Shown here: one piece after another, positions 748 to 891 of the stretch
Numbering within the stretch: the stretch's first letter is position 1
Layout: the number at the start of each line of letters is the position of its first letter
IMG/VR virus record: IMGVR_UViG_3300050821_010639
Location: 1-64,000 of that record
Direction: 5' to 3' (one strand)
From: a virus
Length of the DNA: 64,000 bases
The notes under the pieces: model-generated
Told to the model about the DNA's origin: nothing
Database searches by the model: none
The model's input: the letters and a program-made list of their open reading frames with translations, nothing else
Program-made: the position numbers and the translations under genes

Positions 748-891
748 CAGCGCGAGGAAGGCAAGCCAGCTATTTTCAAGGCCGGTGCTCTGCCGCTGAG
801 CTACCAGGGGCTTTCGCCCCCGGGCGGGATTCGAACCCGCGGCCCCCGGCTCCGGTTTGAGGGAAGGAAGCTGGCCTATGGCCTCACGCTG
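748..891 (-). ncRNA. RNA module 2: two-helix fold holding a permuted tRNA
   Basis: Second copy of the tandem RNA fold. Outer helix CAGCGTGAGG (882-891) pairs with CCTCGCGCTG (748-757) with one G.U. The internal loop is CCAT (878-881) opposite GCCTT (758-762). Inner helix AGGCCAGCT (869-877) pairs with AGCTGGCTT (763-771) with one G.U. The left apical strand starts TCCTTC and the right one ends GAAAAT. Between them lies a complete tRNA-like domain in circularly permuted order (781-850), so the inner helix stacks towards its opened anticodon stem. Confidence 0.75.
781..850 (-). tRNA. Circularly permuted tRNA-like domain, GAAA-closed acceptor stem
   Basis: Read on the minus strand the order is: 3' strand of the anticodon stem GCCGG (846-850), variable GGGCC, T-arm GCGGG-TTCGAAT-CCCGC, acceptor 3' strand CCGGGGG plus C73, loop GAAA, then G-1, acceptor 5' strand CCCCTGG, TA, D-arm GCTC-AGCGGCA-GAGC, A26 and anticodon stem CCGGC (781-785). 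All four stems pair; the acceptor is 7 bp with one G.U plus a G-1:C73 pair. The anticodon loop is open at the domain ends, so the identity cannot be read. It may be a permuted tRNA gene or a tRNA mimic. Confidence 0.6.

Follow-up and report, generated by a model that had tools for sequence, protein, structure and literature searches.

A tRNA-like RNA with its halves in reverse order

The locus described here, on the minus strand of a 64,000-nucleotide (nt) stretch of viral DNA (positions 1 to 64,000 of IMG/VR record IMGVR_UViG_3300050821_010639, the whole of which we call the window), raises the question of what kind of RNA carries every arm of a tRNA with the 3' half placed before the 5' half. 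A preliminary description of this DNA had considered, among other answers, a circularly permuted tRNA gene made functional by endonuclease and ligase, or an RNA which as a whole mimics tRNA. All evidence presented here is computational, and it supports the latter: the RNA, which we refer to as module M3, is probably a tRNA-mimic Y RNA of a divergent Ro-type ribonucleoprotein (RNP), its head being the mimic. The following features are central to the argument.

750–889, minus strand: module M3, a Y-like RNA with a complete tRNA-like head (fold; covariance model R1, described below; Rfam YrlA, 37.9 bits)
781–850, minus strand: the permuted tRNA-like head, made up of the T arm, the closed hairpin of the acceptor, the D arm and a 5-bp equivalent of the anticodon stem (minimum-free-energy cloverleaf; covariation in five phages)
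992–3232, minus strand: gene for a 746-amino-acid (aa) protein with a Ro60-like predicted fold and an inserted TerD domain (phrog_33734; distant kin of NCBIfam NF041916, MXAN_6230/SCO0854)

The head lies on the same strand as 35 tRNA genes and the flanking gene. Read 5' to 3', it opens with GCCGG, the 3' strand of the anticodon stem (850–846), and continues with a 5-nt variable loop, the T arm (GCGGG-UUCGAAU-CCCGC), an acceptor hairpin of 8 bp including one G.U pair (CCGGGGGC-GAAA-GCCCCUGG), the bases UA, the D arm (GCUC-AGCGGCA-GAGC), one further base and CCGGC (785–781). Folded alone, 781–850 adopts exactly this permuted cloverleaf as its minimum-free-energy structure (−40.1 kcal/mol). The preliminary description was therefore right that all arms are present and pair with the 3' half first, and that the acceptor is a continuous 8-bp hairpin capped by GAAA. 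ARAGORN and the Rfam tRNA model made no call on 781–850.

The head is carried on a long stem in which helix P1 (8 bp, 889–882/757–750) is followed by an internal loop of 4/5 nt (CCAU 881–878 / GCCUU 762–758) and helix P2 (8 bp, 877–870/770–763), with a conserved UUCCUUC immediately interior to P2. This inner helix had been thought to adjoin the anticodon stem, which is incorrect, as UUCCUUCCCUCAAACCGGA and CUUGAAAAUA separate the two. A plus-strand Shine-Dalgarno-like GGAAGGAAG with an ATG was rejected as a candidate; these are the conserved UUCCUUC and CCAU read on the opposite strand, and no conserved frame is seen by eye to start there.

Covariation of the head and stem

Folding-energy z-scores were −1.83 for the tRNA part and −2.69 for the whole of M3; energy alone is weak evidence for a fold in DNA this rich in G+C, and it is covariation, not folding energy, which decides that the structure is beyond chance. 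Five phages hold a complete, sequence-diverged head (the window, loci L006, L011 and L077, and Rhodococcus phage Weasels2), and the stem was aligned across 17 modules. Because the structure was derived from the window and its relatives, the paired percentages (99.0% of cells in the head, 91.5% in the stem) are biased towards it, the double changes much less so: these affect 13 of the 22 pairs in the head, with 22 double-change cells observed vs. 6.5 in shuffled alignments, and 13 of the 16 pairs in the stem, with 51 observed vs. 16 shuffled. When partners in the head were slid out of register as a control, pairing fell to 40–54%. The tRNA head has been retained through compensatory change in five diverged phages, which is strong comparative evidence, and the homologues of like order that the preliminary description envisaged have halves which pair.

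Different heads on one stem

M3 shares its stem with three further modules in the window. All four are built alike, from outer and inner helices of 8 bp each that flank an internal loop with CCAU in its 5' strand and GCNNN in its 3' strand, and all have UUCCUUC immediately within the inner helix. The other three are:

911–984, minus strand: module M4, shared stem with a short loop (z −4.34)
636–739, minus strand: module M2, shared stem with a G+C-rich hairpin head (R1, E 6e-7; z −3.39)
529–620, minus strand: module M1, shared stem with a partial tRNA head consisting of T arm and acceptor-like hairpin, no D arm (R1, E 2e-8; z −4.28; T-loop motif)

Heads vary between modules on this one stem, and the arrays hold between one and five copies across loci. 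A T loop was found in 30 of 84 bacterial modules and a recognisable D arm in none of the 84, whilst among 32 phage stretches (the Weasels2 array counted as one, L094 left out) eight had a T loop and five of those eight a D arm. Weasels2 (L021, NC_041887.1 85480–85833) has four like modules in an unannotated gap past FDH04_gp266, the third of which (85640–85763) has a complete tRNA-like head uncalled by ARAGORN. A sixth phage, the A+T-rich L094, has the same full tRNA head within the same kind of stem (3501–3652), with ACCA in the acceptor loop directly past the 3' strand, which looks as though the loop had retained a CCA end. Another permuted tRNA-like arrangement (L012 615–728, also in L017) is flanked on either side by a tRNA-Pro gene within a phage tRNA cluster; it has a 41-nt loop between the acceptor strands and no evident Y stem, and may represent either a genuine permuted tRNA gene or a remnant.

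For M3 to be a functional permuted tRNA gene, its stem would have to be cut, a ligase would have to join the ends through the anticodon loop, and trimming of the GAAA loop would have to yield mature ends. The complete covarying tRNA body, with pairing halves in 3'-to-5' order and a 5-bp anticodon-stem equivalent, agrees with such a gene, as does the ACCA of the distant L094. We nevertheless regard it as very improbable, because the acceptor of M3 is closed by a 4-nt GAAA loop with no room for mature ends or a CCA, because no anticodon loop is conserved in the bases that separate the two strands of the anticodon stem, two flanking helices standing in its place, and because neither RtcB (PF01139) nor RNA_ligase (PF09414) was matched in the 152-kb virus record containing the window, which may be an incomplete fragment and whose host could supply the enzyme. 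Moreover, sister modules put other, non-tRNA heads on the same stem, and the bacterial relatives have T-arm heads lacking a D arm. The proposed route through endonuclease and ligase is thus not supported. The preliminary description had also known of no established phage case, and we too know of none for permuted tRNA genes; the statement does not extend to Y RNAs, which are known with such a head and for which, as for Ro-like proteins, there are reports or proposals from phages.

Resemblance to YrlA

M3 as a tRNA-mimic Y RNA is consistent with its end-to-end alignment to Rfam YrlA (RF02553, 37.9 bits) and with two features of that family found in it, a long stem with an internal loop pairing the 5' and 3' ends, and a head of T arm, closed acceptor and D arm in permuted order. 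As a positive control, a YrlA match was found nearby at 9 of 15 canonical TROVE (actinomycete rsr) loci, at 33.5–50.3 bits. We read M3 as combining the head of YrlA with another stem, next to the gene for a divergent Ro-like protein, because it scores within this canonical, rsr-linked range whilst ordinary tandem-tRNA junctions in the window (6155–6260 and 6309–6411) reach only 24 bits. All other Rfam matches in the window were weak and far under cut-off.

Those junctions belong to a neighbouring tRNA cluster:

3336–8466, minus strand: the tRNA cluster, 35 ordinary genes lying upstream of the Ro-like gene (same order in L011, L012, L021 and L077)

That M3 consists of remnants of tRNA genes from this adjacent cluster, folding as they do by chance, is scarcely credible. 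Proximity and the weak 24-bit YrlA matches of tandem tRNAs favour such an origin; beyond common stretches of the T and D arms, however, the halves fit no single phage tRNA, and covariation of the 8-bp acceptor pairing in five phages contradicts it.

Linkage of the RNA to its neighbouring gene

On the minus strand the tRNA cluster is followed by the 992–3232 gene and then by M4, M3, M2 and M1, the array starting 7 nt past the stop codon of that gene with M4. Relatives of the 746-aa protein were gathered from virus contigs, phage records and bacterial genomes. A motif finder placed 99 modules no more than 800 nt past the gene stop, in 48 of 70 loci, and gave five matches elsewhere on both strands of 669 kb, two of which (L067 from Hyalangium and L089 from a virus) proved to be modules immediately preceding the gene. 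The only pattern match, L010, was set aside, as it falls in unrelated sequence and has, by eye, no pairing 3' half.

A covariance model, R1, was built from 17 compact modules with M1–M3 of the window held out; it recovered these at E 2e-8 to 1e-6 (M3: 1e-6) and found more modules beside distant relatives (L069 from Micromonospora, L070 from Streptomyces, L084 and L088, and weakly L022 and L021). At the 15 canonical TROVE loci R1 gave nothing beyond one chance-level match (E 0.22), and a nucleotide search of phage records returned tRNA-like matches only. The linkage holds from both sides in 394 actinomycete genomes. Searching by RNA, R1 matched 35 genomes, 34 of which have the gene, and at the best 30 R1 loci a profile search found the gene in 29. 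Searching by protein, 46 of the same genomes matched and the RNA was present in all 29 with a full-scoring copy. At the thirtieth R1 locus (L122 1400–1567, genome G369) the RNA is kept whilst the adjoining gene is, by eye, seemingly cut to its 3' end; here the RNA may have persisted beyond the protein, or may work with another copy.

So close a linkage might also arise if the array acted in cis, as a 3' element of the adjoining mRNA (for stability, termination or regulation), its likeness to Y RNAs being incidental. In most loci the array begins 7–20 nt past the stop codon and is therefore probably co-transcribed, as a cis element would be. Against this, the RNA lies upstream of the gene, not downstream, in the distant members L067, L070, L069, L088 and L089, copy number ranges from one to five with different heads, and covarying tRNA heads are unexpected of a stability element. 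We consider a cis-acting role unlikely.

The 746-aa protein

The protein is assigned to phrog_33734. An AlphaFold model from 61 sequences has a predicted local distance difference test (pLDDT) score of 84 and supersedes an earlier six-sequence run (pLDDT 56), which was too poor for use. Two parts were delimited:

2018–2713, minus strand: helical-repeat part, residues 174–405 (VIA-align to the Ro60/Rsr ring; domain limits approximate)
1208–1807, minus strand: TerD domain, residues about 476–675 (VIA-align Z 13–17 to TerD and TerD-like structures; profile match to 3ibz, E 0.0023)

In VIA-align, residues 158–746 match Ro60 of Thermus phage phiLo (9l5y, Z 7.7), Rsr of D. radiodurans (2nvo, Z 6.7) and human Ro60 (Z 5.4–6.0), all within a range (Z 5.4–7.7) where helical repeats can match by chance and where the tool warns that matches may be common arrangements. 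The five Ro60 entries align over 313–332 residues each, and among the matches listed no other exceeds 170 residues. A sequence search of the PDB gave no link to TROVE, and the best 50 Foldseek matches in the PDB include the TerD-like 2qng and no Ro60. By family, the distant relatives L067 and L070 match NF041916 (MXAN_6230/SCO0854 family RING domain protein) strongly, at 1028 and 1084 bits, and the same RNA adjoins both genes; a bacterial relative, L023, falls below the 600-bit cut-off at 375.8, these being scores of relatives and not of the window protein.

A structured RNA repeated beside a single gene in phages and bacteria could also restrain the neighbouring protein, as in type III toxin-antitoxin or similar conflict modules, and TerD domains do occur among phage-resistance gene sets (PMC7824862). 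Searches nonetheless turned up no nuclease domain in the protein, the fold matches are to Ro60 and TerD, and the tRNA heads would be left unexplained; we therefore hold such a module to be very unlikely.

Several results weigh against M3 being a Y RNA of a Ro-type RNP. Its 37.9 bits are under the Rfam YrlA gathering cut-off of 69 bits, and the sequence of its basal stem (CCAU/GCUUU, UUCCUUC) differs from that of YrlA. Two distant phage loci, L020 and L090, have no module by motif finder or R1. On the protein side, in addition to the chance range of the Ro60 scores, Pfam TROVE matched neither the phage genome nor the protein, and a profile comparison of the protein with five TROVE proteins gave no match. 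The Ro assignment, which draws on predicted fold and RNA context, is supported but not proven.

A possible mechanism

Passages of PMC8394870 on YrlA report that its basal stem binds Rsr and that its head of D, T and acceptor arms binds polynucleotide phosphorylase (PNPase) and is modified by DusA and TruB; tethering of PNPase by Rsr and Y RNA is treated in the Deinococcus and Salmonella literature (PMC7790460, PMC8394870), and for YrlA a role as decoy for anticodon nucleases has been suggested (PMC7790460). By analogy, the 992–3232 product may form a Ro-like ring which binds the common stem (P1, the CCAU/GCUUU internal loop, P2 and UUCCUUC), so that each RNA would be seated on the ring and display its own head. 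The head of M3, shaped like a tRNA and having neither anticodon loop nor CCA, might attract proteins which recognise the elbow of tRNAs, or compete for them. Its partner could be PNPase, tethered to help degrade structured or damaged RNA as in the Deinococcus Rsr/Y RNA system; alternatively, M3 could be a decoy shielding the 35 tRNAs of the phage from anticodon nucleases. The heads of M1, M2 and M4 might gate the ring or recruit other partners.

We also lean towards a wider interpretation, in which these loci represent a separate and so far unrecognised branch of Ro-type RNPs, made up of TerD-inserted Ro-fold proteins (kin of phrog_33734 and NF041916) and their own non-Rfam family of Y-like RNAs in actinomycetes, a myxobacterium and phages of several hosts, with the phage copies adding a complete tRNA mimic which may interfere with or protect tRNA processing during infection.

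Surroundings of the array

The order of tRNA cluster before Ro-like gene is the same in phages L011, L012, L021 and L077 as in the window. One further feature lies ahead of the gene:

3275–3304, minus strand: weak match to a sigma-70-like promoter, preceding the Ro-like gene (single consensus match)

Between M1 and the next gene is an inverted repeat (441–509; 17 nt, 88% complementary, 35-nt spacer), terminator-like and without a U run. After the array follows a minus-strand gene with an apparent signal peptide (1–294), and a similar secreted-looking gene is also found downstream of the array in L004 and L006.

Comparison with known systems

That Y RNAs act as tRNA mimics is already known, and three papers report or propose phage Y RNAs or Ro-like proteins (PMC12282133, PMC7765460 and PMC7824862). 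What appears to be new is the stem family, which in the window has no Rfam match at gathering level, its association, in bacteria and phages alike, with a family of TerD-bearing Ro-fold proteins, and the presence of complete tRNA heads in the phage copies; we found no prior description in the open-access literature, though an earlier one may exist. A widespread protein family annotated only by its RING domain would thereby gain a candidate RNA partner and function, Ro/Y RNA particles would extend beyond TROVE proteins, and the cultured Rhodococcus phage Weasels2 offers a system carrying a tRNA-mimic Y RNA which can be studied during infection.

Amongst phages, a close parallel is Listeria phage CKA15, in which, according to PMC12282133, an Rsr-like gene likewise lies near abundant non-coding RNAs with a proposed Y RNA role; the passages of that paper on these putative Y RNAs describe no tRNA-like head or conserved stem. 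The 746-aa protein aligns with Ro60 and Rsr (2nvo, 9l5y and human Ro60) over a predicted ring of helical repeats and a C-terminal domain, at scores within the chance range noted above; unlike them, it carries a TerD insertion and is unrecognised by Pfam TROVE or profile comparison. It differs from NF041916 in that the closer relatives of the window protein are shorter and score below the cut-off. As in circularly permuted tRNA genes of red algae and archaea, the 3' half is encoded before the 5' half in M3, yet those genes are opened by splicing enzymes and acquire mature ends, whereas M3 has a closed GAAA acceptor hairpin and clamped ends. With YrlA (RF02553; Salmonella YrlA, PDB 6CU1 as cited in PMC8394870) M3 shares the long basal stem, the permuted head of T arm, closed acceptor and D arm, and a position beside a gene for a Ro-type protein, here so classed by predicted fold; unlike YrlA, it belongs to arrays of up to five modules with varied heads, next to a partner with no detectable TROVE domain.
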